DNA from: Sipunculus nudus
Lineage: Eukaryota > Annelida > Sipuncula > Golfingiida > Sipunculidae
Direction: 5' to 3'
Length of the DNA stretch: 64,000 bases
NCBI GenBank assembly: GCA_026874595.1
Contig: CM049316.1
Coordinates: 51,469,676-51,533,675 of the forward strand
Under the pieces are notes generated by a model that was not told where the DNA came from, searched no databases, and saw nothing but the letters and a program-made list of their open reading frames with translations. Position numbers and translations under genes: made by a program. Below, piece after piece: positions 1 to 37,902 of the stretch. Positions within the stretch are counted from its first letter, which is position 1, and each line of letters begins with the position of its first letter.

Positions 1-3000
1 TATTTGATTTTGCCGTCGAAGGGTGTTGTACAGACCAGCTCATTATTCAAAACTACACCATTTTTTCAAGATTTATTTTAAAGTCGTATTTTAGTGGGCG
101 GTAGCGCAAAAACGGTGCGTTGTACACCTGATCGGACGGGGTTTAATCGATAGCATTTTAAATGTGCTTTCCAATGATGTATAGTTTATATATAATTTTG
201 CGGTCGAAGGGTGTTGTACCGCCCCAGTTCATTATTCAAAACTACACCATTTTTCAAGATTTATATCAATGTCGTATTTTAGTGGGCAGTAGTGCAAAAA
301 CGGTGCGTTGTACACCTAATCGGACGCGGTTAAATCGATAGCATTTTAAATGTGCTTTCCAATGATGTATAGTTTATATTTGATTTTGCCGTCGAAGGGT
401 GTTGTACAGCCCCAGTTCATTATTCAAAACTACACCATTTTTCAAGATTTATATCAATGTCGTATTTTAGTGGGCAGTAGTGCAAAAACGGTGCGTTGTA
501 CACCTGATCGGACGCGGTTTAATCAATAGCATTTAAATGTGCCTTCCAACGATGTATAGTTTATATATGAATTTGCCGTCGAAGGGTGTTGTACAGACCA
601 GTTCATTATTCAAAACTACACCATATTTCAAGATTTATATAAAAGTCGTATTTTAGTGGGCGGTAGCGCAAAAACGGTTCGTTGTACACCTAATCGGACG
701 GGGTTTAATCAATAGCATTTTAAATGTGCTTTCCAATGATGTATAATTAATATATGATTTTGCCGTCGAAGGGTGTTGTACCGCCCCAGTTCATTATTCA
801 AAACTACACCATTTTTCAAGATTTATATTAATGTCGTATTTTAGTGGGCGGTAGCGCAAAAACGATGCGTTGTACACCTGATCGTACGTGGTTTAATAGA
901 TAGCATTTTAAATATGCTTTCTAATGATGTATAGTTTATATATGATATTGCCGACGAAGGGTGTTTTACAGACCAGTTTATTATTCAAAACTTCCACTTT
1001 TCAAGATTTGTATTAATGTCGTAGTTTAGTGGGCGGTAGCGCAAAAACGGTGCGTTGTACACCTGATCGGACGGGGTTTAATCAATAGCATTTTTAATGC
1101 GCTTTCCAATGATGTATAGTTTATATTTAATTTTGCCGTCGAAGGGTGTTGTACAGACCAGTTCATTATTCAAAACTACACCATTTTTTCAAGATTTATA
1201 TTAAAGTCGTATTTTAGTGGGCGGTAGCGCAAAAACGGTGCATTGTACACCTGATCGGACGGGGTTTAATCGATAGCATTTTAAATGTGCTTTCCAATGA
1301 TGTATAGTTAATATATGATTTTGCCGTCGAAGGGTGTTGTACAGACCAGTTCATTATTCAAAACTACACCATTTTTCAAGATTAATATTAATGTCGTATT
1401 TTAGTGGGCGGTTGCGAAAAAACGGTGCGTTGTAAACCTAATCGGACGGGGTTTAATCAATAGACTTTCAAATGTGCTTTCCAATGATGTATAGTTTATA
1501 TTTGTTTATGCCGTCGAAGGGTGTTGTACAGCCCCAGTTTATTATTCAAAACTATACCATTTTTCAAGATTTATATTAATGTCGTATTTTAGTGGGCGGT
1601 AGCGCAAAAACGGTGCGTTGTACACCTAATCGGACGCTGTTTAATCGATAGCATTTTAAATGTGCTTTCCAATGATGTATAGTTAATATATGATTTTTCC
1701 GTCGAAGGGTGTTGTACCGCCCCAGTTCATTATTCAAAACTACACCATTTTTCAAGATTTATATCAATGTCGTATTTTAGTGGGCGGTAGCGCAAAAACG
1801 ATGCATTGTACACCTGATCGGACGCGGTTTAATCAATAGCATTTTAAATGTGCTTTCCAATGATGTATAGTTTATATTTGTTTTTGCCGTCGAAGGGTGT
1901 TGTACAGACCAGTTCATTAATCAAAACTACACCATGTTTCAAGATTTATATTAATGTCGCATTGTAGTGGGCGGTAGCGCAAACACGCTGCTTTGTACAC
2001 CTGATCGGACGCGGTTTAATCGATAGCATTTTAAATGTGATTTCCAATGATGTATAGTTTATATATGATTTTGCCGTCGAAGGGTGTTGTACAGACCAGT
2101 TCATTATTCAAAACTACACCATTTTTCAAGATTTATATCAATGTCGTTTTTTAGTGGGCAGTAGTGCAAAAACGGTGCGTTGTACACCTGATCGGACGGG
2201 GTTTAATCAATAGCATTTTAAAAGTGCTTTCCAATGATGTATAGTTTATATTTGTTTTTCCCGTAGAAGGGTGTTGTACAGACCAGTTCATTATTCAAAA
2301 CTACACCATTTTTCAAGATTTATATTATTGTCGTATTTTAGTGGGCGGTAGCGGAAAAACGGTTCGTTGTACACCTGATCTGACCGGGTTTAACCAATAG
2401 CACCTTAAATGTGCTTTCCAATGATGTATAGTTAATATATGATTTTGCCGTCGAAGGGTGTTGTACCGCCCCAGTTCATTATTCAAAACTACATCATTTT
2501 TCAAGATTTATATCAATGTCGTATTTTAGTGGGCAGTAGTGCAAAAACGGTTCGTTGTACACCTGATCGGACGGTGTTTAATCAATAGCATTTTAAATGT
2601 GCTTTCCAATGATGTATAGTTTATATTTGTTTTTGCCGTCGAAGGGTGTTGTACAGACCAGTTCATTATTCAAAACTACACCATTTTTCAAGATTTATAT
2701 CATTGTCGTATTTTAGTGGGCGGTAGCGGAAAAACGGTACGTTGTACACCTGATCTGACCGGGTTTAACCAATAGCATCTTAAATGTGCTTTCCAATGAT
2801 GTATAGTTTATATATAATTTTGCGGTCGAAGGGTGTTGTACCGCCCCAGTTCATTATTCAAATCTACACCATTTTTCAAGATTTATATCAATGTCGTATT
2901 TTAGTGGGCAGTAGTGCAAAAACGGTGCGTTGTACACCTGATCGGACGCGGTTTAATCAATAGCATTTTAAATGTGCTTTCCAATGATGTATAGTTAATA

Positions 3001-3502
3001 TATGATTTTGCCGTCGAAGGGTGTTGTACAGACCAGTTCATTATTCAAAACTACACCATTTTTCAAGATTAATATTAATGTCGTATTTTAGTGGGCGGTT
3101 GCGAAAAAACGGTGCGTTGTAAACCTGATCGGACGCGGTTTAATAGATAGCATTTTAAATATGCTTTCTAATGATGTATAGTTTATATATGATATTGCCG
3201 ACGAAAGGTGTTTTACAGACCAGTTTATTATTCAAAACTTCCACATTTCAAGATTTATATTAATGTCGTAGTTTAGGGGGCGGTAGGGCAAAAACGGTGC
3301 GTTGTACACCTAATCGGACGGGGTTTAATAAATTGCATTTTTAATGTGCTTTCCAATGATGTATAGTTTATATTTGATTTTGCCGTCGAAGGGTGTTGTA
3401 CAGACCAGCTCATTATTCAAAACTACACCATTTTTTCAAGATTTATTTTAAAGTCGTATTTTAGTGGGCGGTAGCGCAAAAACGGTGCGTTGTACACCTG
3501 AT

Positions 3503-6500
3503 CGGACGGGGTTTAATCGATAGCATTTTAAATGTGCTTTCCAATGATGTATAGTTAATATATGATTTTGCCGTCGAAGGGTGTTGTACAGACCAGTTCA
3601 TTATTCAAAACTACACCATTTTTCAAGATTAATATTAATGTCGTATTTTAGTGGGCGGTTGCGAAAAAACGGTGCGTTGTACACCTAATCGGACGGGGTT
3701 TAATCAATAGAATTTCAAATGTGCTTTCCAATGATGTATAGTTTATATTTGTTTATACCGTGGAATTGTGTTGTACAGCCCCAGTTCATTATTCAAAACT
3801 ATACCATTTTTCAAGATTTATATTAATGTCGTATTTTAGTGGGCGGTAGCGCAAAAACGGTGCGTTGTACACCTGATCTGACCGGGTTTAACCAATAGCA
3901 CCTTAAATGTGCTTTCCAATGATGTATAGTTTATATATAATTTTGCGGTCGAAGGGTGTTGTACCGCCCCAGTTCATTATTCAAAACTACACCATTTTTC
4001 AAGATTTATATCAATGTCGTATTTTAGTGGGCAGTAGTGCAAAAACGGTGCGTTGTACACCTGATCGGACGCGATTTAATCAATAGCATTTTAAATGTGC
4101 TTTCCAATGATGTATAGTTAATATATGATTTTGCCGTCGAAGGGTGTTGTACAGACCAGTTCATTATTCAAAACTACACCATTTTTCAAGATTAATATTA
4201 ATGTCGTATTTTAGTGGGCGGTTGCGAAAAAACGGTGCGTTGTAAACCTGATCGGACGCGGTTTAATAGATAGCATTTTAAATATACTTTCTAATGATGT
4301 ATAGTTTATATATGATATTGCCGACGAAGGGTGTTTTACAGACCAGTTTATTATTCAAAACTTCCACTTTTCAAGATTTATATTAATGTCGTAGTTTAGG
4401 GGGCGGTAGCGCAAAAACGGTGCGTTGTACACCTAATCGGACGGGGTTTAATCAATTGCATTTTTAATGTGCTTTCCAATGATGTATAGTTAATATATGA
4501 TTTTGCCGTCGAAGGGTGTTGTACAGACCAGTTCATTATTCAAAACTACATCATTTTTCAAGATTAATATTAATGTCGTATTTTAGTGGGCGGTTGCGAA
4601 AAAACGGTGCGTTGTACACCTAATCGGACGGGGTTTAATCAATAGAATTTCAAATGTGCTTTCCAATGATGTATAGTTTATATTTGTTTATGCCGTCGAA
4701 TTGTCTTGTACAGCCCAAGTTCATTATTCAAAACTATACCATTTTTCAAGATTTATATTAATGTCGTATTTTAGTGGGCGGTAGCGCAAAAACGGTGCGT
4801 TGTACACCTAATCGGACGCGGTTTAATCGATAGCATTTTAAATGTGCTTTCCAATGATGTATAGTTAATATATGATTTTGCCGTCGAAGGGTGTTGTACA
4901 GACCAGTTCATTATTCAAAACTACACCATTTTTTCAAGATTTATATTAATGTCATATTTTAGTGGGCGGTAGCGCAAAAACGGTGCGTTGTACACCTAAT
5001 CGGACGCGGTTAAAACGATAGCATTTTAAATGTGCTTTCCAATGATGTATAGTTTATATTTGATTTTGCCGTCGAAGGGTGTTGTACAGCCCCAGTTCAT
5101 TATTCAAAACTACACCATTTTTCAAGATTTATATCGATGTCGTATTTTAGTGGGCAGTAGTGCAAAAACGGTGCGTTGTACACCTGATCGGACGCGGTTT
5201 AATCAATAGCATTTTAAATGTGCTTTCCAACGATGTATAGTTTATATATGAATTTGCCGTCGAAGGGTGTTGTACAGACCAGTTCATTATTCAAAACTAC
5301 ACCATATTTCAAGATTTATATAAAAGTCGTATTTTAGTGGGCGGTAGCGCAAAAACGGTTCGTTGTACACCTAATCGGACGGGGTTTAATCATAGCATTT
5401 TAAATGTGCTTTCCAATGATGTATAGTTAATATATGATTTTGCCGTCGAATGGTGTTGTACCGCCCCAGTTCTTTATTCAAAACTACACCATTTTTCAAG
5501 ATTTATATTAATGTCGTATTTTAGTGGGCGGTAGCGCAAGAACGGTGCGTTGTACAGTACCTGATCGGACGGGGTTTAATCAATAGCATTTTAAATGTGC
5601 TTTCCATGCAATGATGTATAAATTTTTTTTATGATTTTGCCATCGAAGGGTGTTGTACCGCCCCAGTTCATTATTCAAAACTACACCATTTTTCAAGATT
5701 TATATTAATGTCGTATTTTAGTGGGCGGTAGCGCAAAAACGATGCGTTGTACACCTGATCGGACGGGGTTTAATCGATAGCATTTTAAATGTGCTTTCCA
5801 ATGATGTATAGTTAATATATGATTTTGCCGTCGAAGGGTGTTGTACAGACCAGTTCATTATTCAAAACTACACCATTTTTCAAGATTAATATTAATGTCG
5901 TATTTTAGTGGGCGGTTGCGAAAAAACGGTGCGTTGTACACCTAATCGGACGGGGTTTAATCAATAGAATTTCAAATGTGCTTTCCAATGATGTATAGTT
6001 TATATTTGTTTATACCGTGGAATTGTGTTGTACAGCCCCAGTTCATTATTCAAAACTATACCATTTTTCAAGATTTATATTAATGTCGTATTTTAGTGGG
6101 CGGTAGCGCAAAAACAGTGCATTGTACACCTGATCTGACCGGGTTTAACCAATAGCACCTTAAATGTGCTTTCCAATGATGTATAGTTTATATATAATTT
6201 TGCGGTCGAAGGGTGTTGTACCGCCCCAGTTCATTATTCAAAACTACACCATTTTTCAAGATTTATATCAATGTCGTATTTTAGTGGGCAGTAGTGCAAA
6301 AACGGTGCGTTGTACACCTGATCGGACGCGGTTTAATCAATAGCATTTTAAATGTGCTTTCCAATGATGTATAGTTAATATATGATTTTGCCGTCGAAGG
6401 GTGTTGTACAGACCGGTTCATTATTCAAAACTACACCATTTTTCAAGATTAATATTAATGTCGTATTTTAGTGGGCGGTTGCGAAAAAACGGTGCGTTGT

Positions 6501-8020
6501 AAACCTGATCGGACGCGGTTTAATAGATAGCATTTTAAATATACTTTCTAATGATGTATAGTTTATATATGATATTGCCGACGAAGGGTGTTTTACAGAC
6601 CAGTTTATTATTCAAAACTTCCACTTTTCAAGATTTATATTAATGTCGTAGTTTAGGGGGCGGTAGCGCAAAAACGGTGCGTTGTACACCTAATCGGACG
6701 GGGTTTAATCAATTGCATTTTTAATGTGCTTTCCAATGATGTATAGTTAATATATGATTTTGCCGTCGAAGGGTGTTGTTCAGACCAGTTCATTATTCAA
6801 AACTACATCATTTTTCAAGATTAATATTAATGTCGTATTTTAGTGGGCGGTTGCGAAAAAACGGTGCGTTGTACACCTAATCGGACGGGGTTTAATCAAT
6901 AGAATTTCAAATGTGCTTTCCAATGATGTATAGTTTATATTTGTTTATGCCGTCGAATTGTGTTGTACAGCCCCAGTTCATTATTCAAAACTATACCATT
7001 TTTCAAGATTTATATTAATGTCGTATTTTAGTGGGCGGTAGCGCAAAAACGGTGCGTTGTACACCTAATCGGACGCGGTTTAATCGATAGCATTTTAAAT
7101 GTGCTTTCCAATGATGTATAGTTAATATATGATTTTGCCGTCGAAGGGTGTTGTACAGACCAGTTCATTATTCAAAACTACACCATTTTTTCAAGATTTA
7201 TATTAATGTCATATTTTAGTGGGCGGTAGCGCAAAAACGGTGCGTTGTACACCTAATCGGACGCGGTTAAAACGATAGCATTTTAAATGTGCTTTCCAAT
7301 GATGTATAGTTTATATTTGATTTTGCCGTCGAAGGGTGTTGTACAGCCCAAGTTCATTATTCAAAACTACACCATTTTTCAAGATTTATATCGATGTCGT
7401 ATTTTAGTGGGCAGTAGTGCAAAAACGGTGCGTTGTACACCTGATCGGACGCGGTTTAATCAATAGCATTTTAAATGTGCTTTCCAACGATGTATAGTTT
7501 ATATATGAATTTGCCGTCGAAGGGTGTTGTACAGACCAGTTCATTATTCAAAACTACACCATATTTCAAGATTTATATAAAAGTCGTATTTTAGTGGGCG
7601 GTAGCGCAAAAACGGTTCGTTGTACACCTAATCGGACGGGGTTTAATCATAGCATTTTAAATGTGCTTTCCAATGATGTATAGTTAATATATGATTTTGC
7701 CGTCGAATGGTGTTGTACCGCCCCAGTTCTTTATTCAAAACTACACCATTTTTCAAGATTTATATTAATGTCGTATTTTAGTGGGCGGTAGCGCAAGAAC
7801 GGTGCGTTGTACAGTACCTGATCGGACGGGGTTTAATCAATAGCATTTTAAATGTGCTTTCCATGCAATGATGTATAAATTTTTTTTATGATTTTGCCAT
7901 CGAAGGGTGTTGTACCGCCCCAGTTCATTATTCAAAACTACACCATTTTTCAAGATTTATATTAATGTCGTATTTTAGTGGGCGGTAGCGCAAAAACGAT
8001 GCGTTGTACACCTGATCGGA
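3503..8020. repeat. 12-monomer higher-order repeat, two tandem copies (2257 bp)
   Basis: Rare variants recur exactly 2257 bp apart: CCATGCAATGATG at 5604 and 7861, and ACCGTGGAATTG at 3757 and 6014. The two copies (about 3503-5760 and 5760-8020) differ at only about ten positions that I noticed, for example CTTGTACAGCCCAAG against GTTGTACAGCCCCAG. Neighbouring monomers within a copy differ far more. 2257 bp is 12 monomers. Confidence 0.9.
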
Positions 8021-11000
8021 CGCGGTTTAATAGATAGCATTTTAAATATGCTTTCTAATGATGTATAGTTTATATATGATATTGCCGACGAAGGTTGTTT
8101 TACAGACCAGTTTATTATTCAAAACTTCCACTTTTCAAGATTTGTATTAATGTCGTAGTTTAGTGGGCGGTAGCGCAAAAACGGTGCGTTGTACACCTGA
8201 TCGGACGGAATTTAATCAATAGCATTTTTAATGTGCTTTCCAACGATGTATAGTTTATATTTAATTTTGCCGTCGAAGGGTGTTGTACAGACCAGTTCAT
8301 TATTCAAAACTACACCATTTTTTCAAGATTTATATTAAAGTCGTATTTTAGTGGGCGGTAGCGCAAAAACGGTGCGTTGTACACCTGATCGGACGGGGTT
8401 TAATCGATAGCATTTTAAATGTGCTTTCCAATGATGTATAGTTAATATATGATTTTGCCGTCGAAGGGTGTTATACAGACCAGTTCATTATTCAAAACTA
8501 CACCATTTTTCAAGATTAATATTAATGTCGTATTTTAGTGGGCGGTTGCGAAAAAACGGTGCGTTGTACACCTAATCGGACGGGGTGTAATCAATAGACT
8601 TTCAAATGTGCTTTCCAATGATGTATAGTTTATATTTGTTTATGCCGTCGAAGGGTGTTGTACAGCCCCAGTTTATTATTCAATACTATACCATTTTTCA
8701 AGATTTATATTAATGTCGTATTTTAGTGGGCGGTAGCGCAAAAACGGTGCGTTGTACACCTGATCGAACTGTTTAATCGATAGCATTTTAAATGTGCTTT
8801 CCAATGATGTATAGTTAATATATGATTTTGCCGTCGAAGGGTGTTGTACCGCCCCAGTTCATTATTCAAAACTACACCATTTTTCAAGATTTATATCAAT
8901 GTCGTATTTTAGTGGGCGGTAGCGCAAAAACGGTGCATTGTACACCTGATCGGACGCGGTTTAATCAATAGCATTTTAAATGTGCTTTCCAATGATGTAT
9001 AGTTTATATTTGTTTTTGCCGTTGAAGGGTGTTGTACAGACCAGTTCATTATTCAAAACTACACCATGTTTCAAGATTTATATTAATGTCGCATTTTAGT
9101 GGGCGGTAGCGCAAACACGCTGCTTTGTACACCTGATCGGACGCAGTTTAATCGATAGCATTTGAAATGTGATTTCCAATGATGTATAGTTTATATATGA
9201 TTTTGCCGTCGAAGGGTGTTGTACAGACCAGTTCATTATTCAAAACTACACCATTTTTCAAGATTTATATCAATGTCGTATTTTAGTGGGCAGTAGCGCA
9301 AAAACGGTGCGTTGTACACCTGATCGGACGCTGTTTAATCGATAGCATTTTAAATGTGCTTTCCAATGATGTATTGTTAATATATGATTTTGCCGTCGAA
9401 GGGTGTTGTACCGCCCCAGTTCATTATTCAAAACTACATCATTTTTCAAGATTTATATCAATGTCGTATTTTAGTGGGCAGTAGTGCAAAAACGGTGCGT
9501 TGTACACCTGATCGGACGGGGTTTAATCGATAGCATTTTAAATGTGCTTTCCAATGATGTATAGTTAATATATGATTTTGCCGTCGAAGGGTGTTGTACC
9601 GCCCCAGTTCATTATTCAAAACTACACCATTTTTCAAGATTTATATCAATGTCGTATTTTAGTGGGCAGTAGTGCAAAAACGGTGCGTTGTACACCTAAT
9701 CGGATGCGGTTTAATCAATAGCATTTTAAATGTGCTTTCCAACGATGTATAGTTTATATATGAATTTGCCGTCGAAGGGTGTTGTACAGACCAGTTCATT
9801 ATTCAAAACTACACCGTATTTCAAGATTTATATTAAAGTCGTATTTTAGTGGGCGGTAGCGCAAAAACGGTTCGTTGTAAACCTAATCGGACGGGGTTTA
9901 ATCAATAGCATTTTAAATGTGCTTTCCAATGATGTATAGTTAATATATGATTTTGCCGTCGAAGGGTGTTGTACAGACCAGTTCATTATTCAAAACTACA
10001 CCATTTTTCAAGATTTATATTATTGTCGTATTTTAGTGGGCGGTAGCGGAAAAACGGTTCGTTGTACACCTGATCTGACCGGGTTTAACCAATAGCATCT
10101 TAAATGTGCTTTCCAATGATGTATAGTTTATATATAATTTTGCGGTCGAAGGGTGTTGTACCGCCCCAGTTCATTATTCAAAACTACACCATTTTTCAAG
10201 ATTTATATCAATGTCGTATTTTAGTGGGCAGTAGTGCAAAAACGGTGCGTTGTACACCTGATCGGACGCGGTTTAATCAATAGCATTTTAAATGTGCTTT
10301 CCAATGATGTATAGTTAATATATGATTTTGCCGTCGAAGGGTGTTGTACAGACCAGTTCATTATTCAAAACTACACCATTTTTCAAGATTAATATTAATG
10401 TCGTATTTTAGTGGGCGGTTGCGAAAAAACGGTGCGTTGTAAACCTGATCGGACGCGGTTTAATAGATAGCATTTTAAATATGCTTTCTAATGATGTATA
10501 GTTTATATATGATTTTGCTGACGAAGGGTGTTTTACAGACCAGTTTATTATTCAAAACTTCCACTTTTCAAGATTTATATTAATGTCGTAGTTTAGGGGG
10601 CGGTAGCGCAAAAACGGTGCGTTGTACACCTAATCGGACGGGATTTAATCAATTGCATTTTTAATGTGCTTTCCAATGATGTATAGTTTATATTTGATTT
10701 TGCCGTCGAAGGGTGTTGTACAGAACAGTTCATTATTCAAAACTACACCATTTTTTCAAGATTTATATTAAAGTCGTATTTTAGTGGGCGGTAGCGCAAA
10801 AACGGTGCGTTGTACACCTGATCGGACGGGGTTTAATCGATAGCATTTTTAATGTGCTTTCCAATGATGTATAGTTTATATTTGATTTTGCCGTCGAAGG
10901 GTGTTGTACAGACCAGTTTATTATTCAAAACTACACCATTTTTCAAGATTAATATTAATGTCGTATTTTAGTGGGCGGTTGCGAAAAAACGGTGCGTTGT

Positions 11001-14000
11001 ACACGTAATCGGAAGGGGTTTAATCAATAGAATTTCAAATGTGCTTTCCAATGATGTATAGTTTATATTTGTTTATGCCGTCGAATTGTCTTGTACAGCC
11101 CAAGTTCATTATTCAAAACTATACCATTTTTCAAGATTTATATCAATGTCGTATTTTAGTGGGCGGTAGCGCAAAAACGGTGCGTTGTACACCTAATCGG
11201 ACGCGGTTTAATCGATAGCATTTTAAATGTGCTTTCCAATGATGTATAGTTAATATATGATTTTGCCGTCGAAGGGTGTTGTACAGACCAGTTCATTATT
11301 CAAAACTACACCATTTTTTCAAGATTTATATTAATGTCGTATTTTAGTGGGCGGTAGCGCAAAAACGGTGCGTTGTACACCTAATCGGACGCGGTTAAAT
11401 CGATAGCATTTTAAATGTGCTTTCCAATGATGTATAGTTTATATTTGATTTTGCCGTCGAAGGGTGTTGTACAGCCCCAGTTCATTATTCAAAACTACAC
11501 CATTTTTCAAGATTTGTATTAATGTCGTAGTTTAGTGGGCGGTAGCGCAAAAACGGTGCGTTGTACACCTGATCGGACGCGGTTTAATCAATAGCATTTT
11601 TAATGTGCTTTCCAATGATGTATAGTTTATATTTAATTTTGCCGTCGAAGGGTGTTGTACAGACCAGTTCATTATTCAAAACTACACCATTTTTTCAAGA
11701 TTTATATTAAAGTCGTATTTTAGTGGGCGGTAGCGCAAAAACGGTGCGTTGTACACCTAATCGGACGGGGTTTAATCGATAGCATTTTAAATGTGCTTTC
11801 CAATTATTTATAGTTAATATATGATTTTGCCGTCGAAGGATGTTGTACAGACCAGTTCATTATTCAAAACTACACCATTTTTCAAGATTAATATTAATGT
11901 CGTATTTTAGTGGGCGGTTGCCAAAAAACGGTGCGTTGTACACCTAATCGGACGGGGTTTAATCAATAGACTTTCAAATGTGCTTTCCAATGATGTATAG
12001 TTTATATTTGTTTTTGCCGTCGAAGGGTGTTGTACAGACCAGTTCATTATTCAAAACTACACCATGTTTCAAGATTTATATTAATGTCGCATTTTAGTGG
12101 GCGGTAGCGCAAACACGCTGCTTTGTACACCTGATCGGACGCGGTTTAATCGATAGCATTTTAAATGTGATTTCTAATGATGTATAGTTTATATATGATT
12201 TTGCCGTCGAAGGGTGTTGTACAGACCAGTTCATTATTCAAAACTACACCATTTTTCAAGATTTATATCAATGTCGTTTTTTAGTGGGCAGTAGTGCAAA
12301 AACGGTGCGTTGTACACCTGATCGGACGCTGTTTAATCAATAGCATTTTAAATCTGCTTTCCAATGATGTATAGTTAATATATGATTTTGCCGTCGAAGG
12401 GTGTTGTACCGCCCCAGTTCATTATTCAAAACTACATCATTTTTCAAGATTTATATCAATGTCGTATTTTAGTGGGCAGTAGTGCAAAAACGGTTCGTTG
12501 TACACCTGATCGGACGGGGTTTAATCAATAGCATTTTAAATGTGCTTTCCAATGATGTATAGTTTATATTTGTTTTTGCCGTCGAAGGGTGTTGTACAGA
12601 CCAGTTCATTATTCAAAACTACACCATTTTTCAAGATTTATATTATTGTCGTATTTTAGTGGGCGGTAGCGGAAAAACGGTTCGTTGTACACCTGATCTG
12701 ACCGGGTTTAACCAATAGCATCTTAAATGTGCTTTCCAATGATGTATAGTTTATATATAATTTTGCGGTCGAAGGGTGTTGTACCGCCCCAGTTCATTAT
12801 TCAAAACTACACCATTTTTCAAGATTTATATCAATGTCGTATTTTAGTGGGCAGTAGTGCAAAAACGGTGCGTTGTACACCTGATCGGACGCGGTTTAAT
12901 CAATAGCATTTTAAATGTGCTTTCCAATGATGTATAGTTAATATATGATTTTGCCGTCGAAGGGTGTTGTACAGACCAGTTCATTATTCAAAACTACACC
13001 ATTTTTCAAGATTAATATTAATGTCGTATTTTAGTGGGCGGTTGCGAAAAAACGGTGCGTTGTAAACCTGATCGGACGCGGTTTAATAGATAGCATTTTA
13101 AATATGCTTTCTAATGATGTATAGTTTATATATGATTTTGCTGACGAAGGGTGTTTTACAGACCAGTTTATTATTCAAAACTTCCACTTTTCAAGATTTA
13201 TATTAATGTCGTAGTTTAGGGGGCGGTAGCGCAAAAACGGTGCGTTGTACACCTAATCGGACGCGGTTTAATCGATAGCATTTTAAATGTGCTTTCCAAT
13301 GATGTATAGTTAATATATGATTTTGCCGTCGAAAGGTGTTGTACAGACCAGTTCATTATTCAAAACTACACCATTTTTTCAAGATTTATATTAATGTCGT
13401 ATTTTAGTGGGCGGTAGCGCAAAAACGGTGCGTTGTACACCTAATCGGACGCGGTTAAATCGATAGCATTTTAAATGTGCTTTCCAATGATGTATAGTTT
13501 ATATTTGATTTTGCCGTCGAAGGGTGTTGTACAGCCCCAGTTCATTATTCAAAACTACACCATTTTTCAAGATTTATGTCAATGTCGTATTTTAGTGGGC
13601 AGTAGTGCAAAAACTGTGCGTTGTACACCTGATCGGACGCTGTTTAATCGATAGCATTTTAAATGTGCTTTCCAATCATGTATAGTTAATATATGATTTT
13701 GCCGTCGAAGGGTGTTGTACCGCCCCAGTTCATTATTCAAAACTACACCATTTTTCAAGATTTATATCAATGTCGTATTTTAGTGGGCAGTAGTGCAAAA
13801 ACGGTGCTTTGTACACCTGATCGGATGCGGTTTAATCAATAGCATTTTAAATGTGCTTTCCAACGATGTATAGTTTATATATGAATTTGCCGTCGAAGGG
13901 TGTTGTACAGACCAGTTCATTATTCAAAACTACACCGTATTTCAAGATTTATATTAAAGTCGTATTTTAGTGGGCGGTAGCGCAAAAACGGTTCGTTGTA

Positions 14001-17000: not shown

Positions 17001-17199
17001 CACCTGATCGGACGCGGTTTAATCAATAGCATTTTTAATGTGCTTTCCAATGATGTATAGTTTATATTTAATTTTGCCGTCGAAGGGTGTTGTACAGACC
17101 AGTTCATTATTCAAAACTACACCATTTTTTCAAGATTTATATTAAAGTCGTATTTTAGTGGGCGGTAGCGCAAAAACGGTGCGTTGTACACCTAATCGG

Positions 17200-25800: not shown

Positions 25801-28800
25801 GGTGCATTGTACACCTGATCGGACGCGGTTTAATCAATAGCATTTTAAATGTGCTTTCCAATGATGTATAGTTTATATTTGTTTTTGCCGTCGAAGGGTG
25901 TTGTACAGACCAGTTCATTATTCAAAACTACACCATTTTTCAAGATTTATATTATTGTCGTATTTTAGTGGGCGGTAGCGGAAAAACGGTTCGTTGTACA
26001 CCTGATCTGACCGGGTTTAACCAATAGCATCTTAAATGTGCTTTCCAATGATGTATAGTTTATATATAATTTTGCGGTCGAAGGGTGTTGTACCGCCCCA
26101 GTTCATTATTCAAAACGACACCATATTTCAAGATTTATATCAATGTCGTATTTTAGTGGGCAGTAGTGCAAAAACGGTGCGTTGTACACCTGATCGGACG
26201 CGGTTTAATCAATAGCATTTTAAATGTGCTTTCCAATGATGTATAGTTAATATATGATTTTGCCGTCGAAGGGTGTTGTACAGACCAGTTCATTATTCAA
26301 AACTACACCATTTTTCAAGATTTATATGAATGTCGTATTTTAGTGGGCGGTTGCGAAAAGACGGTGCGATGTAAACCTGATCGGGCGCGGTTTAATAGAT
26401 AGCATTTTAAATATGCTTTCTAATGATGTATAGTTTATATATGATATTGCCGACAAAGGGTGTTTTACAGACCAGTTTATTATTCAAAACTTCCACTTTT
26501 CAAGATTTATATTAATGTCGTAGTTTAGGGGGCGGTAGCGCAAAAACGGTGCGTTGTACACCTAATCGGACGGGGTTTAATCAATTGCATTTTTAATGTG
26601 CTTTCCAATGATGTATAGTTTATATTTGATTTTGCCGTCGAAGGGTGTTGTACAGACCAGTTCATTATTCAAAACTACACCATTTTTTCAAGATTTATAT
26701 TAAAGTCGTATTTTAGTGGGCGGTAGCGCAAAAACGGTGCGTTGTACACCTGATCGGACGGGGTTTAATCGATAGCATTTTAAATGTGCTTTCCAATGAT
26801 GTATAGTTAATATATGATTTTGCCGTCGAAGGGTGTTGTACAGACCAGTTCATTATTCAAAACTACACCATTTTTCAAGATTAATATTAATGTCGTATTT
26901 TAGTGGGCGGTTGCGAAAAAACGGTGCGTTGTACACCTAATCGGACGGGGTTTAATCAATAGAATTTCAAATGTGCTTTCCAATGATGTATAGTTTATAT
27001 TTGTTTATGCCGTCGAATTGTCTTGTACAGCCCAAGTTCATTATTCAAAACTATACCATTTTTCAAGATTTATATCAATGTCGTATTTTAGTGGGCGGTA
27101 GCGCAAAAACGGTGCGTTGTACACCTAATCGGACGCGGTTTAATCGATAGCATTTTAAATGTGCTTTCCAATGATGTATAGTTAATATATGATTTTGCCG
27201 TCGAAGGGTGTTGTACAGACCAGTTCATTATTCAAAACTACACCATTTTTTCAAGATTTATATTAATGTCGTATTTTAGTGGGCGGTAGCGCAAAAACGG
27301 TGCGTTGTACACCTAATCGGACGCGGTTAAATCGATAGCATTTTAAATGTGCTTTCCAATGATGTATAGTTTATATTTGATTTTGCCGTCGAAGGGTGTT
27401 GTACAGCCCCAGTTCATTATTCAAAACTACACCATTTTTCAAGATTTATGTCAATGTCGTATTTTAGTGGGCAGTAGTGCAAAAACTGTGCGTTGTACAC
27501 CTGATCGGACGCTGTTTAATCGATAGCATTTTAAATGTGCTTTCCAATCATGTATAGTTAATATATGATTTTGCCGTCGAAGGGTGTTGTACCGCCCCAG
27601 TTCATTATTCAAAACTACACCATTTTTCAAGATTTATATCAATGTCGTATTTTAGTGGGCAGTAGTGCAAAAACGGTGCGTTGTACACCTGATCGGATGC
27701 GGTTTAATCAATAGCATTTTAAATGTGCTTTCCAACGATGTATAGTTTATATATGAATTTGCCGTCGAAGGGTGTTGTACAGACCAGTTCATTATTCAAA
27801 ACTACACCGTATTTCAAGATTTATATTAAAGTCGTATTTTAGTGGGCGGTAGCGCAAAAACGGTTCGTTGTAAACCTAATCGGACGGGGTTTAATCAATA
27901 GCATTTTAAATGTGCTTTCCAATGATGTATAGTTAATATATGATTTTGCCGTCGAAGGGTGTTGTACCGCCCCAGTTCTTTATTCAAAACTACACCATTT
28001 TTCAAGATTTGTATTAATGTCGTAGTTTAGTGGGCGGTAGCGCAAAAACGGTGCGTTGTACACCTGATCGGACGGGGTTTAATCAATAGCATTTTTAATG
28101 TGCTTTCCAATGATGTATAGTTTATATTTAATTTTGCCGTCGAAGGGTGTTGTACAGACCAGTTCATTATTCAAAACTACACCATTTTTTCAAGATTTAT
28201 ATTAAAGTCGTATTTTAGTGGGCGGTAGCGCAAAAACGGTGCGTTGTACACCTAATCGGACGGGGTTTAATCGATAGCATTTTAAATGTGCTTTCCAATT
28301 ATTTATAGTTAATATATGATTTTGCCGTCGAAGGATGTTGTACAGACCAGTTCATTATTCAAAACTACACCATTTTTCAAGATTAATATTAATGTCGTAT
28401 TTTAGTGGGCGGTTGCCAAAAAACGGTGCGTTGTACACCTAATCGGACGGGGTTTAATCAATAGACTTTCAAATGTGCTTTCCAATGATGTATAGTTTAT
28501 ATTTATTTATGCCGTCGAAGGGTGTTGTACAGCCCCAGTTTATTATTCAAAACTATACCATTTTTCAAGATTTATATTAATGTCGTATTTTAGTGGGCGG
28601 TAGCGCAAAAACGGTGCGTTGTACACCTAATCGGAAGCTGTTTAATCGATAGCATTTAAAATGTGCTTTCCAATGATGTATAGTTAATATATGATTTTGC
28701 CGTCGAAGGGTGTTGTACAGACCAGTTCATTATTCAAAACTACACCATTTTTCAAGATTTATATCAATGTCGTATTTTAGTGGGCGGTAGCGCAAAAACG

Positions 28801-29592
28801 GTGCATTGTACACCTGATCGGACGCGGTTTAATCAATAGCATTTTAAATGTGCTTTCCAATGATGTATAGTTTATATATGATTTTGCCGTCGAAGGGTGT
28901 TGTACCGCCCCAGTTCATTATTCAAAACTACACCATTTTTCAAGATTTATATCAATGTCGTATTTTAGTGGGCGGTAGCGCAAAAACGGTGCATTGTACA
29001 CCTGATCGGACGCGGTTTAATCAATAGCATTTTAAATGTGCTTTCGAATGATGTATAGTTTATATTTGTTTTTGCCGTCGAAGGGTGTTGTACAGACCAG
29101 TTCATTATTCAAAACTACACCATTTTTCAAGATTTATATTATTGTCGTATTTTAGTGGGCGGTAGCGGAAAAACGGTTCGTTGTACACCTGATCTGACCG
29201 GGTTTAACCAATAGCATCTTAAATGTGCTTTCCAATGATGTATAGTTTATATATAATTTTGCGGTCGAAGGGTGTTGTACCGCCCCAGTTCATTATTCAA
29301 AACGACACCATATTTCAAGATTTATATCAATGTCGTATTTTAGTGGGCAGTAGTGCAAAAACGGTGCGTTGTACACCTGATCGGACGCGGTTTAATCAAT
29401 AGCATTTTAAATGTGCTTTCCAATGATGTATAGTTAATATATGATTTTGCCGTCGAAGGGTGTTGTACAGACCAGTTCATTATTCAAAACTACACCATTT
29501 TTCAAGATTTATATGAATGTCGTATTTTAGTGGGCGGTTGCGAAAAGACGGTGCGATGTAAACCTGATCGGGCGCGGTTTAATAGATAGCAT
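19468..29592. repeat. 27-monomer super-repeat, two tandem copies (5062 bp)
   Basis: Rare variants recur exactly 5062 bp apart: TGAACACC at 19621 and 24683, GCCGCCGAAG at 19888 and 24950, GGAAGCTG at 23571 and 28633, and TTCGAATG at 23981 and 29043. The copy junction is near 24,530, where a GGGCGCGGTTTAATAGATAG monomer switches to the monomer type found near 19,470. This block contains part of the 2811-bp duplication, so the duplications are nested. The internal spacing of one marker is 3187 then 1875 bp (17 plus 10 monomers). I saw almost no differences between the copies. Confidence 0.9.
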
Positions 29593-32500
29593 TTTAAATA
29601 TGCTTTCTAATGATGTATAGTTTATATATGATATTGCCGACAAAGGGTGTTTTACAGACCAGTTTATTATTCAAAACTTCCACTTTTCAAGATTTATATT
29701 AATGTCGTAGTTTAGGGGGCGGTAGCGCAAAAACGGTGCGTTGTACACCTAATCGGACGGGGTTTAATCAATTGCATTTTTAATGTGCTTTCCAATGATG
29801 TATAGTTTATATTTGATTTTGCCGTCGAAGGGTGTTGTACAGACCAGTTCATTATTCAAAACTACACCATTTTTTCAAGATTTATATTAAAGTCGTATTT
29901 TAGTGGGCGGTAGCGCAAAAACGGTGCGTTGTACACCTGATCGGACGGGGTTTAATCGATAGCATTTTAAATGTGCTTTCCAATGATGTATAGTTAATAT
30001 ATGATTTTGCCGTCGAAGGGTGTTGTACAGACCAGTTCATTATTCAAAACTACACCATTTTTCAAGATTAATATTAACGTCGTATTTTAGTGGGCGGTTG
30101 CGAAAAAACGGTGCGTTGTACATCTAATCGGACGGGGTTTAATCAATAGAATTTCAAATGTGCTTTCCAATGATGTATAGTTTATATTTGTTTATGCCGT
30201 CGAATTGTGTTGTACAGCCCCAGTTCATTATTCAAAACTATACCATTTTTCAAGATTTATATTAATGTCGTATTTTAGTGGGCGGTAGCGCAAAAACGGT
30301 GCGTTGTACACCTAATCGGACGCGGTTTAATCGATTGCATTTTAAATGTGCTTTCCAATGATGTATAGTTAATATATGATTTTGCCGTCGAAGGGTGTTG
30401 TTCAGACCAGTTCATTATTCAAAACTACACCATTTTTTCAAGATTTATATTAATGTCGTATTTCAGTGGGCGGTAGCGCAAAAACGGTGCGTTGTACACC
30501 TAATCGGACGCGGTTAAATCGATAGCGTTTTAAATGTGCTTTCCAATGATGTATAGTTAATATATGATTTTGCCGTCGAAGGGTGTTGTACCGCCCCAGT
30601 TCATTATTCAAAACTACACCATTTTTCAAGATTTATATCAATGTCGTATTTTAGTGGGCAGTAGTGCAAAAACGGTGCTTTGTACACCTGATCGGACGCG
30701 GTTTAATCAATAGCATTTTAAATGTGCTTTCCAACGATGTATAGTTTATATATGAATTTGCCGTCGAAGGGTGTTGTACAGACCAGTTCATTATTCAAAA
30801 CTACACCATATTTCAAGATTTATATTAAAGTCGTATTTTAGTGGGCGGTAGCGCAAAAACGGTTCGTTGTAAACCTAATCGGACGGGGTTTAATTAATAG
30901 CATTTTAAATGTGCTTTCCAATGATGTATAGTTAATATATGATTTTGCCGTCGAAGGGTGTTGTACCGCCCCAGTTCATTATTCAAAACTACACCATTTT
31001 TCAAGATTTATATCAATGTCGTATTTTAGTGGGCGGTAGCGCAAAAACGGTGCATTGTACACCTGATCGGACGCGGTTTAATCAATAGCATTTTAAATGT
31101 GCTTTCGAATGATGTATAGTTTATATTTGTTTTTGCCGTCGAAGGGTGTTGTACAGACCAGTTCATTATTCAAAACTACACCATTTTTCAAGATTTATAT
31201 TATTGTCGTATTTTAGTGGGCGGTAGCGGAAAAACGGTTCGTTGTACACCTGATCTGACCGGGTTTAACCAATAGCATCTTAAATGTGCTTTCCAATGAT
31301 GTATAGTTTATATATAATTTTGCGGTCGAAGGGTGTTGTACCGCCCCAGTTCATTATTCAAAACGACACCATATTTCAAGATTTATATCAATGTCGTATT
31401 TTAGTGGGCAGTAGTGCAAAAACGGTGCGTTGTACACCTGATCGGACGCGGTTTAATCAATAGCATTTTAAATGTGCTTTCCAATGATGTATAGTTAATA
31501 TATGATTTTGCCGTCGAAGGGTGTTGTACAGACCAGTTCATTATTCAAAACTACACCATTTTTCAAGATTTATATGAATGTCGTATTTTAGTGGGCGGTT
31601 GCGAAAAGACGGTGCGATGTAAACCTGATCGGGCGCGGTTTAATAGATAGCATTTTAAATATGCTTTCTAATGATGTATAGTTTATATATGATATTGCCG
31701 ACAAAGGGTGTTTTACAGACCAGTTTATTATTCAAAACTTCCACTTTTCAAGATTTATATTAATGTCGTAGTTTAGGGGGCGGTAGCGCAAAAACGGTGC
31801 GTTGTACACCTAATCGGACGGGGTTTAATCAATTGCATTTTTAATGTGCTTTCCAATGATGTATAGTTTATATTTGATTTTGCCGTCGAAGGGTGTTGTA
31901 CAGACCAGTTCATTATTCAAAACTACACCATTTTTTCAAGATTTATATTAAAGTCGTATTTTAGTGGGCGGTAGCGCAAAAACGGTGCGTTGTACACCTG
32001 ATCGGACGGGGTTTAATCGATAGCATTTTAAATGTGCTTTCCAATGATGTATAGTTAATATATGATTTTGCCGTCGAAGGGTGTTGTACAGACCAGTTCA
32101 TTATTCAAAACTACACCATTTTTCAAGATTAATATTAATGTCGTATTTTAGTGGGCGGTTGCGAAAAAACGGTGCGTTGTACATCTAATCGGACGGGGTT
32201 TAATCAATAGAATTTCAAATGTGCTTTCCAATGATGTATAGTTTATATTTGTTTATGCCGTCGAATTGTGTTGTACAGCCCCAGTTCATTATTCAAAACT
32301 ATACCATTTTTCAAGATTTATATTAATGTCGTATTTTAGTGGGCGGTAGCGCAAAAACGGTGCGTTGTACACCTAATCGGACGCGGTTTAATCGATTGCA
32401 TTTTAAATGTGCTTTCCAATGATGTATAGTTAATATATGATTTTGCCGTCGAAGGGTGTTGTTCAGACCAGTTCATTATTCAAAACTACACCATTTTTTC

Positions 32501-33010
32501 AAGATTTATATTAATGTCGTATTTCAGTGGGCGGTAGCGCAAAAACGGTGCGTTGTACACCTAATCGGACGCGGTTAAATCGATAGCGTTTTAAATGTGC
32601 TTTCCAATGATGTATAGTTAATATATGATTTTGCCGTCGAAGGGTGTTGTACCGCCCCAGTTCATTATTCAAAACTACACCATTTTTCAAGATTTATATC
32701 AATGTCGTATTTTAGTGGGCAGTAGTGCAAAAACGGTGCTTTGTACACCTGATCGGACGCGGTTTAATCAATAGCATTTTAAATGTGCTTTCCAACGATG
32801 TATAGTTTATATATGAATTTGCCGTCGAAGGGTGTTGTACAGACCAGTTCATTATTCAAAACTACACCATATTTCAAGATTTATATTAAAGTCGTATTTT
32901 AGTGGGCGGTAGCGCAAAAACGGTTCGTTGTAAACCTAATCGGACGGGGTTTAATTAATAGCATTTTAAATGTGCTTTCCAATGATGTATAGTTAATATA
33001 TGATTTTGCC
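28890..33010. repeat. 11-monomer higher-order repeat, two tandem copies (2061 bp)
   Basis: TTCGAATG at 29043 and 31104, ACATCTAATCGG near 30120 and 32181, and GAAAAGACGG at 29542 and 31603 are all about 2061 bp apart (11 monomers). The copies diverge at about 33,010, where CAGTTCATTATTC is replaced by CAGTTCTTTATTC. The block overlaps the end of the 5062-bp duplication, giving a third layer of nesting. Confidence 0.88.
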
Positions 33011-33440
33011 GTCGAAGGGTGTTGTACCGCCCCAGTTCTTTATTCAAAACTACACCATTTTTCAAGATTTATATTAATGTCGTATTTTAGTGGGCGGTAG
33101 CGCAAGAACGGTGCGTTGTACAGTACCTGATCGGACGGGGTTTAATCAATAGCATTTTAAATGTGCTTTCCATGCAATGATGTATAAATTATTTATGATT
33201 TTGCCATCGAAGGGTGTTGTACCGCCCCAGTTCATTATTCAAAACTACACCATTTTTCAAGATTTATATTAATGACGTATTTTAGTGGGCGGTAGCGCAA
33301 AAACGATACGTTGTACACCTGATCGGACGCGGTTTAATAGATAGCATTTTAAATATGCTTTCTAATGATGTATAGTTTATATATGATATTGCCGACGAAG
33401 GGTGTTTTACAGACCAGTTTATTATTCAAAACTTCCACTT

Positions 33441-34566
33441 TTCAAGATTTGTATTAATGTCGTAGTTTAGTGGGCGGTAGCGCAAAAACGGTGCGTTGTA
33501 CACCTGATCGGACGGGGTTTAATCAATAGCATTTTTAATGTGCTTTCCAATGATGTATAGTTTATATTTCATTTTGCCGTCGAAGGGTGTTGTACAGACC
33601 AGTTCATTATTCAAAACTACACCATTTTTTCAAGATTTATATTAAAGTCGTATTTTAGTGGGCGGTAGCGCAAAAACGGTGCGTTGTACACCTGATCGGA
33701 CGGGGTTTAATCGATAGTATTTTAAATGTGCTTTCCAATGATGTATAGTTACTATTTGATTTTGCCGTCGAAGGGTGTTGTACAGACCAGTTCATTATTC
33801 AAAACTACACCATTTTTCAAGATTAATATTAATGTCGTATTTTAGTGGGCGGTTGCGAAAAAACGGTGCGTTGTACACCTAATCGGACGGGGTTTAATCA
33901 ATAGACTTTCAAATGTGCTTTCCAATGATGTATAGTTTATATTTGTTTATGCCGTCGAAGGGTGTTGTACAGCCCCAGTTCATTATTCAAAACTATACCA
34001 TTTTTCAAGATTTGTATTAATGTCGTAGTTTAGTGGGCGGTAGCGCAAAAACGGTGCGTTGTACACCTGATCGGACGGGGTTTAATCAATAGCATTTTTA
34101 ATGTGCTTTCCAATGATGTATAGTTTATATTTCATTTTGCCGTCGAAGGGTGTTGTACAGACCAGTTCATTATTCAAAACTACACCATTTTTTCAAGATT
34201 TATATTAAAGTCGTATTTTAGTGGGCGGTAGCGCAAAAACGGTGCGTTGTACACCTGATCGGACGGGGTTTAATCGATAGTATTTTAAATGTGCTTTCCA
34301 ATGATGTATAGTTACTATTTGATTTTGCCGTCGAAGGGTGTTGTACAGACCAGTTCATTATTCAAAACTACACCATTTTTCAAGATTAATATTAATGTCG
34401 TATTTTAGTGGGCGGTTGCGAAAAAACGGTGCGTTGTACACCTAATCGGACGGGGTTTAATCAATAGACTTTCAAATGTGCTTTCCAATGATGTATAGTT
34501 TATATTTGTTTATGCCGTCGAAGGGTGTTGTACAGCCCCAGTTCATTATTCAAAACTATACCATTT
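33441..34566. repeat. 3-monomer tandem duplication in the satellite (563 bp)
   Basis: TTCAAGATTTGTATTAATG at 33441 and 34004, TTCATTTTGCCG at 33568 and 34131, and GTTACTATTTG at 33748 and 34311 are each 563 bp apart, or three monomers. This is the smallest higher-order duplication that I found in the array. Confidence 0.88.
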
Positions 34567-37500
34567 TTCAAGATTTATATTAATGTCGTATTTTAGTGGG
34601 CGGTAGCGCAAAAACGGTGCTTTGTACACCTGATCGGACGCTGTTTAATCGATAGCATTTTAAATGTGCTTTCCAATGATGTATAGTTAATATATGATTT
34701 TGCCGTCGAAGGGTGTTGTACCGCCCCAGTTCATTATTCAAAACTACACCATTTTTCAAGATTTATATCAATGTCGTATTTTAGTGGGCAGTAGTGCAAA
34801 AACGGTGCGTTGTACACCTGATTGGACGCGGTTTAATCAATAGCATTTGAAATGTGCTTTCCAATGATGTATAGTTTAAATATGAATTTGCCGTCGAAGG
34901 GTGTTGTACAGACCAGTTCATTATTCAAAACTGCACCATATTTCAAGATTTATATTAAAGTCGTATTTTAGTGGGCGGTTGCGCAAAAACGGTTCGTTGT
35001 ACACCTAATCGGACGGGGTTTAATCAACAGCATTTTAAATGTGCTTTCTAATGATGTATAGTTAATATATGATTTTGCCGTCGAAGGGTGTTGTACAGAC
35101 CAGTTCATTATTCAAAACTACACCATTTTTCAAGATTTATATCAATGTCGTATTTTAGTGGGCAGTAGTGCAAAAACGGTGCGTTGTACACCTGATCGGA
35201 CGGGGTTTAATCAATAGCATTTTAAATGTGCTTTCCAATGATGTATAGTTTATATTTGTTTTTGCCGTCGAAGGGTGTTGTACAGACCAGTTCATTATTC
35301 AAAACTACACCATGTTTCAAGATTTATATTAATGTCGCATTTTAGTGGGCGGTAGCGCAAACACGCTGCTTTGTACACCTGATCGGACGCGGTTTAATCG
35401 ATAGCATTTTAAATGTGATTTCTAATGATGTATAGTTTATATATGATTTTGCCGTCGAAGGGTGTTGTACAGACCAGTTCATTATTCAAAACTACACCAT
35501 TTTTCAAGATTTATATCAATGTCGTTTTTTAGTGGGCAGTAGTGCAAAAACGGTGCGTTGTACACCTGATCGGACGCTGTTTAATCAATAGCATTTTAAA
35601 TCTGCTTTCCAATGATGTATAGTTAATATATGATTTTGCCGTCGAAGGGTGTTGTACCGCCCCAGTTCATTATTCAAAACTACATCATTTTTCAAGATTT
35701 ATATCAATGTCGTATTTTAGTGGGCAGTAGTGCAAAAACGGTTCGTTGTACACCTGATCGGACGGGGTTTAATCAATAGCATTTTAAATGTGCTTTCCAA
35801 TGATGTATAGTTTATATTTGTTTTTGCCGTCGAAGGGTGTTGTACAGACCAGTTCATTATTCAAAACTACACCATTTTTCAAGATTTATATTGTCGTATT
35901 TTAGTGGGCGGTAGCGGAAAAACGGTTCGTTGTACACCTGATCTGACCGGGTTTAACCAATAGCATCTTAAATGTGCTTTCCAATGATGTATAGTTTATA
36001 TATAATTTTGCGGTCGAAGGGTGTTGTACCGCCCCAGTTCATTATTCAAAACTACACCATTTTTCAAGATTTATATCAATGTCGTATTTTAGTGGGCAGT
36101 AGTGCAAAAACGGTGCGTTGTACACCTGATCGGACGCGGTTTAATCAATAGCATTTTAAATGTGCTTTCCAATGATGTATAGTTAATATATGATTTTGCC
36201 GTCGAAGGGTGTTGTACAGACCAGTTCATTATTCAAAACTACACCATTTTTCAAGATTAATATTAATGTCGTATTTTAGTGGGCGGTTGCGAAAAAACGG
36301 TGCGTTGTAAACCTGATCGGACGCGGTTTAATCAATAGCATTTTAAATGTGCTTTCCAATGATGTATAGTTAATATATGATTTTGCCGTCGAAGGGTGTT
36401 GTACAGACCAGTTTATTATTCAAAACTTCCACTTTTCAAGATTTATATTAATGTCGTAGTTTAGGGGGCGGTAGCGCAAAAACGGTGCGTTGTACACCTA
36501 ATCGGACGGGGTTTAATCAATTGCATTTTTAATGTGCTTTCCAATGATGTATAGTTTATATTTGATTTTGCCGTCGAAGGGTGTTGTACAGACCAGTTCA
36601 TTATTCAAAACTACACCATTTTTTCAAGATTTATATTAAAGTCGTATTTTAGTGGGCGGTAGCGCAAAAACGGTGCGTTGTACACCTGATCGGACGGGGT
36701 TTAATCGATAGCATTTTAAATGTGCTTTCCAATGATGTATAGTTAATATATGATTTTGCCGTCGAAGGGTGTTGTACAGACCAGTTCATTATTCAAAACT
36801 ACACCATTTTTCAAGATTAATATTAATGTCGTATTTTAGTGGGCGGTTGCGAAAAAACGGGGCGTTGTACACCTAATCGGACGGGGTTTAATCAATAGAA
36901 TTTCAAATGTGCTTTCCAATGATGTATAGTTTATATTTGTTTATGCCGTCGAATTGTGTTGTACAGCCCCAGTTCATTATTCAAAACTATACCATTTTTC
37001 AAGATTTATATTGTCGTATTTTAGTGGGCGGTAGCGCAAAAACGGTGCGTTGTACACCTAATCGGACGCGGTTTAATCGATAGCATTTTAAATGTGCTTT
37101 CCAATGATGTATAGTTAATATATGATTTTGCCGTCGAAGGGTGTTGTACCGCCCCAGTTCATTATTCAAAACTACACCATTTTTTCAAGATTTATATTAA
37201 TGTCGTATTTTAGTGGGCGGTAGCGCAAAAACGGTGCGTTGTACACCTAATCGGACGCGGTTAAATCGATAGCATTTTAAATGTGCTTTCCAATGATGTA
37301 TAGTTTATATTTGATTTTGCCGTCGAAGGGTGTTGTACAGCCCCAGTTCATTATTCAAAACTACACCATTTTTCAAGATTTATATCAATGTCGTATTTTA
37401 GTGGGCAGTAGTGCAAAAACGGTGCGTTGTACACCTGATCGGACGCTGTTTAATCGATAGCATTTTAAATGTGCTTTCCAATGATGTATAGTTAATATAA

Positions 37501-37902
37501 GATTTTGCCGTCGAAGGGTGTTGTACCGCCCCAGTTCATTATTCAAAACTACACCATTTTTCAAGATTTATATCAATGTCGTATTTTAGTGGGCAGTAGT
37601 GCAAAAACGGTGCGTTGTACACCTGATCGGACGCGGTTTAATCAATAGCATTTTAAATGTGCTTTCCAACGATGTATAGTTTATATATGAATTTGCCGTC
37701 GAAGGGTGTTGTACAGACCAGTTCATTATTCAAAACTACACCATATTTCAAGATTTATATTAAAGTCGTATTTTAGTGGGCGGTAGCGCAAAAACGGTTC
37801 GTTGTAAACCTAATCGGACGGGGTTTAATCAATAGCATTTTAAATGTGCTTTCCAATGATGTATAGTTAATATATGATTTTGCCGTCGAAGGGTGTTGTA
37901 CC

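Follow-up and report, generated by a model that had tools for sequence, protein, structure and literature searches.

Block mosaic and a 17-monomer higher-order repeat domain in a 187/188-bp satellite array of Sipunculus nudus

How a simple tandem satellite acquires higher-order structure, and whether the order of its monomers is random or inherited, is the question raised by a satellite array of Sipunculus nudus. The stretch analysed, hereafter the window, comprises 64,000 nucleotides (G000:C11:51469676-51533675) of a genome of 1.43 Gb in 153 contigs. A head-to-tail array of a 187/188-bp monomer, for which TRF counted 202 copies at window 1-37901, occupies window 1-37902 on the plus strand, as do all duplications and repeat units described below. 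This extent, given by the initial annotation, was right at its right end; position 1 is only the edge of the window. Reading the sequence leftwards placed the start of the array at C11:51432548, about 37.1 kb to the left. From end to end, the array thus measures about 75 kb; it has 371 monomer starts, all on one strand, and is bounded on either side. Its sole interruption, left of the window, is 5,611 bp of foreign sequence (C11:51444518-51450128) splitting one monomer; TTAA was seen by eye at both junctions, and this insert is possibly a DNA transposon of the TTAA-targeting kind. After merging half-monomer anchor matches and leaving out the interval interrupted by the insert, 369 whole monomers were analysed, 183 of them distinct in sequence, with a mean pairwise identity of 0.916. 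The two monomer halves are weakly similar: anchor matches lie 93-94 bp apart in several monomers (e.g. window 36765-36952), and the best score between the halves was 10, whereas none of 300 single-base shuffles scored above 9.5. This is only suggestive; a possible ancestor of the monomer is a dimer with a unit of about 94 bp.

The initial annotation had described a nested mosaic of tandem duplications that differ in scale and partly overlap, and this description was borne out. Its spacings of 563, 2061, 2257, 2811 and 5062 bp were all recovered exactly in the window, where 2257, 2061, 5062 and 563 are also the top spacings among two-copy 25-mers; further spacings are 4872, 23248, 3370 and 1120. 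The longest exact repeat, of 5077 bp at spacing 5062 (window 19461/24523), belongs to a 27-monomer tandem duplication (2 x 5062 bp, window 19461-29584) whose copies are identical in the assembly. It is followed in length by 2409 bp at spacing 2811 (window 17214/20025), within a 15-monomer duplication (2 x 2811 bp, two mismatches, window 17214-22835), and by 1204 bp at spacing 2061 (window 28874/30935), within an 11-monomer duplication (2 x 2061 bp, one mismatch, window 28874-32995). Exact repeats of 672 bp at spacing 2257 (window 5094/7351) and 575 bp at spacing 563 (window 33439/34002) mark duplications of 12 monomers (2 x 2257 bp, eight mismatches, window 3486-7999) and of three monomers (2 x 563 bp, identical, window 33439-34564). 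Repeats of 878 bp at spacing 2249 (window 12386/14635) and of 690 bp at spacing 2623 (window 9951/12574) were also exact. The motif GATTTTGCTGACG, reported at 10511, 13134 and 15383, occurs exactly there and nowhere else in the array; it is carried by three near-identical, non-adjacent blocks (starts 9951, 12574 and 14823, window 9951-15653) that lie 14 and 12 monomers apart. Left of the window, we found a second 27-mer tandem duplication (lag 5068, six mismatches within the match), a second 11-mer duplication (lag 2061, one mismatch) and an 18-mer duplication with indels (lag 3384). The nine tandem lags measured (eight matches plus the 18-mer) each correspond, give or take a few bases, to an integer number of monomers of about 187.5 bp, at variance with the shifting register proposed initially.

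A random order of monomers was ruled out by run lengths, run counts and class succession, all compared with shuffled orders. At 97.5% identity, 260 runs of at least three monomers were present in the whole array of 369 monomers, whereas 50 shuffled orders averaged 3.1, and the longest run reached 27 monomers against at most four; 353 of the 369 monomers lay inside such runs. Single dips to 94% were allowed in the observed runs and disallowed in the shuffles, in these tests as in that of the window; with dips disallowed, the longest run was still 27 and coverage 345/369. For the window alone (203 pieces, including two half-monomers), the longest run was 26, the maximum in 200 monomer-order shuffles being four. 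Clustering at 3% produced 44 classes whose succession had an entropy of 1.14 bits, against 3.17 in 200 shuffles. When blocks repeated at 99% over at least four monomers were removed (182 transitions left), the values were 1.14 and 2.45 bits; the class order is therefore more than an effect of the youngest duplications. Block identity was thus far above the shuffled background, the opposite of the random order that would have spoken against the initial description.

The order is clearest in window 12585-33397, a higher-order repeat domain of eight successive copies or derivatives of one 17-monomer unit, with 12, 17, 15, 17, 10, 17, 11 and 12 monomers. The parental 17-mer is 3.19 kb long; three copies are complete and five, of 10-15 monomers, are missing whole monomers. 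From left to right, the domain consists of a 12-mer lacking unit positions 4-6, 14 and 15 (window 12585-14833), the full copy A (14834-18020), a 15-mer lacking positions 11-12 (18021-20831), the full copy B, used as ruler (20832-24018), a 10-mer lacking positions 3-7 and 11-12 (24019-25893), the full copy C (25894-29080), an 11-mer (29081-31141) and a 12-mer whose lowest single-monomer match is 0.913 (31142-33397). Copy A differs from copy B at 21 sites in 3187 bp and copy C is identical to copy B; in length, the exact 27-mer equals a 17-mer and a 10-mer together, and its duplication accounts for these two identical copies. Several of the periods listed initially therefore reduce to one parent unit and its derivatives. 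The initial remark that no single period dominates was correct for the whole array, in which the best lag among 1-79 was 27, at just 0.011 over the mean, but not for this domain. The shorter units appear to have lost monomers, rather than the longer ones having gained them.

Array-wide, the fraction of steps leading to the next ruler position was 0.655, against 0.063 in shuffled orders, the ruler having been picked after viewing the class string. By domain, it was 0.896 in the right domain (monomers 230-345; copies inside one domain are non-independent), 0.538 in the middle, 0.544 in the left and 0.591 at the far right edge, with shuffle means of 0.06-0.07 (0.060 for the right domain). The left and middle domains exclude the ruler and are thus the fairer test of order. 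In the right domain, monomers at the same unit position had a mean identity of 0.987, against 0.916 for different positions. Copies of the multi-monomer unit are hence much more alike than the monomers inside it, and they recur head-to-tail in a fixed order, as in a higher-order repeat. A single unit does not dominate the array, since the 17-mer, covering about 21 of its 75 kb, forms one domain of a larger mosaic. Within the unit, the 17 monomers share identities of 0.856 to 0.984 and are about 8% apart. The closest pair is just 1.6% apart, so that, under the definitions available in PMC11276891, the 17-mer is a cascading and not a Willard-type repeat, in which all monomers of a unit are at least 5% apart.

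Among the matches listed, the same satellite was found elsewhere on C8 (28.94-29.15 Mb) and on C10, close to one of its ends (252-259 kb). Opposite orientations lie close together at both places, an arrangement absent from the C11 array. First samples comprised 93, 48 and 35 monomers from C8 and six from C10, two C10 minus-strand monomers being dropped as too few. The nearest relative was in the same stretch for 90/93, 37/48 and 29/35 of the C8 monomers and for 3/6 of those from C10; among the C11, C8 and C10 monomers sampled, all 369 C11 monomers had theirs within C11. A contiguous C8 array of 308 monomers, which includes the first 93, had 275 of them in runs of at least three, and a class succession of 1.25 bits against 2.94 (own classes, redundant blocks kept in). 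It has no leading period (best lag +0.008). Neither the C8 nor the C10 samples, which are partial arrays, showed the 17-mer order of C11. Their monomers match only three non-neighbouring unit positions, and the step test is zero by construction; this shows that most C11 classes are absent from these samples, not that C8 is disordered. Of the two chromosomes read at length, both carry block mosaics and only C11 carries the 17-mer.

We infer that the array evolves by in-register homologous exchange with itself, in blocks of whole monomers, mostly about 10-30 at a time, and without known coding or RNA function, a reading to which we give a probability of roughly 0.75. The blocks, their order, their register and local homogenisation are observed directly. 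Each event would copy or remove a string of complete monomers, in most cases about 10-30 of them (2-5 kb); as neighbouring monomers would thereby move together, their order would be inherited. In the right half, repeated duplication of an ordered 17-monomer unit, with whole monomers dropping out of some copies, would have left a young higher-order repeat over an older scrambled mosaic. In-register tandem duplications and local homogenisation, as expected under the Smith model of unequal exchange, are both present, and break-induced replication predicts the same. The pathway would be either unequal sister-chromatid exchange, which is a sufficient explanation of the duplications as the initial annotation had suggested, or break-induced replication; our data fit both alike, and both models are set out in PMC8997354.

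The size of the exchanged blocks is indicated by the neighbours. Near-identical monomers were found in 0 of 368 cases at lag 1, in 0.3% at lag 2 and in up to 5.8% at lags 11-20, and neighbours in the C11 array fell slightly below the average similarity (-0.0073). In the simulations, blocks were duplicated and deleted at random, with short offsets (mean of three monomers) or long ones (up to 30). Under short offsets, neighbours exceeded the average similarity in every case (+0.003 to +0.19), and near-identical neighbours made up fractions of 0.31-0.63 in four long runs and of 0.026-0.327 in those six settings whose mean identity came closest to the observed one, against 0 observed; with long offsets, the deviation was around zero and mostly negative. 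Replication slippage and short-offset exchange were rejected on the grounds that their simulated neighbours are wrongly alike. The rejection is not clean: two of the four long short-offset runs came near the observed long-range similarity (0.027 and 0.081 versus 0.037 at lags 81-160), and long offsets at the right mean identity also overshoot near-identical neighbours (0.003-0.11 versus 0). The long-offset settings nearest zero, for their part, undershoot long-range similarity (0.001-0.005 versus 0.037 at lags 81-160), and no simulated setting reproduced every number.

Greedy undoing of tandem duplications found nine events and removed 141 of the 369 monomers, whereas 7-28 were removed from 20 shuffled orders. 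Eight tandem matches were examined for their junctions; the 4-mer, whose match is shorter than its offset, was excluded, leaving seven junctions, two of which share a boundary. The exchange overlap at these seven was 12-79 bp, with a mean of 36 versus 24 at random points (P 0.12), a difference that does not establish overlaps longer than chance. The positions of the seven junctions are spread within the monomer, which does not support a fixed breakpoint motif. Overlaps of 12-79 bp are short for ordinary homologous crossing-over and count against our preferred explanation; the exchange therefore seems tolerant of partners about 8% different.

After the nine events had been undone, 82 non-adjacent runs of at least three monomers persisted, and deletions, conversion or other moves are therefore also needed. 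Likewise, all four combinations were present in 122 of 300 pairs of two-allele columns (four-gamete test), so that exchange inside monomers or recurrent mutation also acts. Both observations would be expected if short-tract gene conversion between distant monomers made most of the similarity, but the exact stretches of 5077 and 2409 bp, in which adjacent copies match over the length of their offset, are those of duplications, and the available text of PMC12321929 puts conversion tracts at about 125 bp for Arabidopsis and mostly below 500 bp for humans; as the main process, conversion is unlikely. Rolling-circle copying of excised multi-monomer circles followed by re-insertion would likewise insert multi-monomer blocks in register, and is a route proposed for satellite amplification (PMC8122249). 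Circles should, however, often leave at least three copies of a unit in succession; the tandem events here are two-copy and the 17-mer copies unequal in length, making this route quite improbable. In-register exchange among the monomers themselves remains the reading that we prefer.

Nothing seen in the sequence points to a function of the satellite. No Rfam match was found in the window, nor any CENP-B box (0 matches to a core consensus, 0.24 expected by chance). A core 28-mer has 126 exact copies in the C11 array (371 monomer starts), 146 in the C8 array (308 monomers) and 678 genome-wide, counts from which the whole satellite can be roughly estimated at 1,400-2,000 monomers, or about 0.3-0.4 Mb. 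Known centromeric satellites have a nucleosome-sized monomer and array-specific higher-order repeats, and many centromeres lack a CENP-B box. A role as functional centromere satellite, with selection or drive favouring the higher-order repeat, would fit the monomer size and array-specific repeat found here (compare PMC8997354), and the absence of a CENP-B box from the window counts little against it for the reason just given; yet just 678 exact core copies in 1.43 Gb, 126 of them in the C11 array, and places on C8, C10 and C11 only, among the matches listed (100 of 678), render it very doubtful. Least credible of all is an assembly artefact, whereby the assembler would have created the longest exact tandem copies by false duplication: the copies of 5062 bp show no difference in the assembly, but other tandem copies differ by 1-8 mismatches, the ordered succession holds without redundant blocks and the C8 array has the same mosaic style, so that at most single events could be explained in this way.

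Right of the satellite, a 21-bp repeat (core GTGCGCAC) forms three arrays, in both orientations, at window 39861-40171, 44628-44851 and 45666-45755. The same flank contains a weak Exo_endo_phos-like fragment (window 44889-45350, plus strand, E 0.00028) and a Lipase_GDSL_2-like fragment (window 45926-46531, minus strand, E 2.8e-07), both just below the Pfam cut-offs. Endonuclease-like and GDSL-lipase-like fragments are often seen in retroelements, and both are probably retroelement remains. Elsewhere in the genome, an ATP:guanido phosphotransferase exon (PF00217) is repeated at G000:C16:44157300-44530205 on the minus strand, with a step of about 6.28-6.37 kb and at least 24 main-exon matches in two runs of 11 and 13; this looks like a tandemly amplified gene of the arginine-kinase type. 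For a related guanidino-kinase exon on C5, the best PDB scores were with a taurocyamine kinase and an arginine kinase of about 718 residues, in keeping with an invertebrate host. Nine COX1 matches with nearly equal scores were located on contigs C60, C61, C62, C66, C72, C74, C75 and C89 (two places). The sole match translated (577 aa) was bacterial, with at most 58% identity to the 80 relatives kept, and these contigs probably derive from a symbiont or contaminant to which nothing in the collection compared is closely related.

The initial annotation considered multi-scale organisation of this kind to be best known from primate alpha satellite. This is fair as history, but higher-order repeats are also described in beetles and Arabidopsis (PMC8122249, PMC7598501, PMC12321929). 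A similar mixture, of an 11-mer and its 4-, 7- and 8-mer derivatives, is reported for human centromere 8 (PMC8997354): there as here, a longer parental unit is accompanied by shorter derivatives, and copies are near-identical while monomers within the unit are more diverged. The domain is 21 kb here and far larger on centromere 8, and the present satellite is set apart by its divergence of about 8% and its three full units, besides a monomer of 187/188 bp instead of the approximately 171 bp of alpha satellite and the 0 matches to a CENP-B box in the window. Primate unit monomers are given as about 20-40% apart in PMC11276891, which also describes cascading higher-order repeats, with some monomers of the unit of the same type (less than 5% apart), like the closest 17-mer pair with its 98.4% identity.

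Outside primates, the beetle Chrysolina carnifex has higher-order dimers and trimers (PMC8122249), and the Tribolium TCAST units are said to mix subfamilies and extraneous sequence (PMC7598501). Both resemble the C11 array as higher-order repeats of an invertebrate satellite, but the Chrysolina unit has two or three monomers and that of TCAST is mixed, whereas the C11 unit is built of 17 monomers of one satellite. Arabidopsis CEN180 shares with it a nucleosome-sized monomer, chromosome-specific blocks and within-chromosome homogenisation; its higher-order repeats are mostly of two or three monomers, unlike the 17 found here, and its centromeric function is known (PMC12321929), whereas such a function would be only putative for the C11 array. 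The SSUsat satellite of the bivalve Spisula subtruncata is likewise an invertebrate tandem satellite, with a 315-bp monomer instead of 187/188 bp and no higher-order organisation reported among 39 monomers (PMC5537241), and subrepeats of bivalve satellites are treated in a general statement (PMC5874043). No mollusc higher-order repeat is described in the available text of PMC12692304, a review from 2025, or of PMC12818792, on a mussel satellitome, and a limited literature search by title and abstract found no mollusc array with a unit of the size of the 17-mer. Higher-order repeats outside primates have thus already been described; there is no sign of a new kind of element, and the C11 array is ordinary satellite evolution, unusually readable.

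In our view, the transition from simple to higher-order repeats has been argued mostly from huge primate centromeres, where early steps have perhaps been overwritten. A small array, covered from flank to flank, in which an unordered mosaic stands beside what appears to be a young 17-mer, gives access to ordered steps, junctions and offsets; the absence of near-identical neighbours (0/368) and the 12-79 bp overlaps at seven junctions bear on the mechanism. It is tentatively possible that a higher-order repeat was caught here at birth: an older mosaic without a leading period, comparable to the C8 sample, would be settling on C11 into the 17-mer, with near-identical monomers 10-17 positions apart steering further exchange to that offset. 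If this is true, a recent history of about nine events would be readable in 75 kb, and the array, with no CENP-B box found, would be a test bed for the origin of higher-order repeats.
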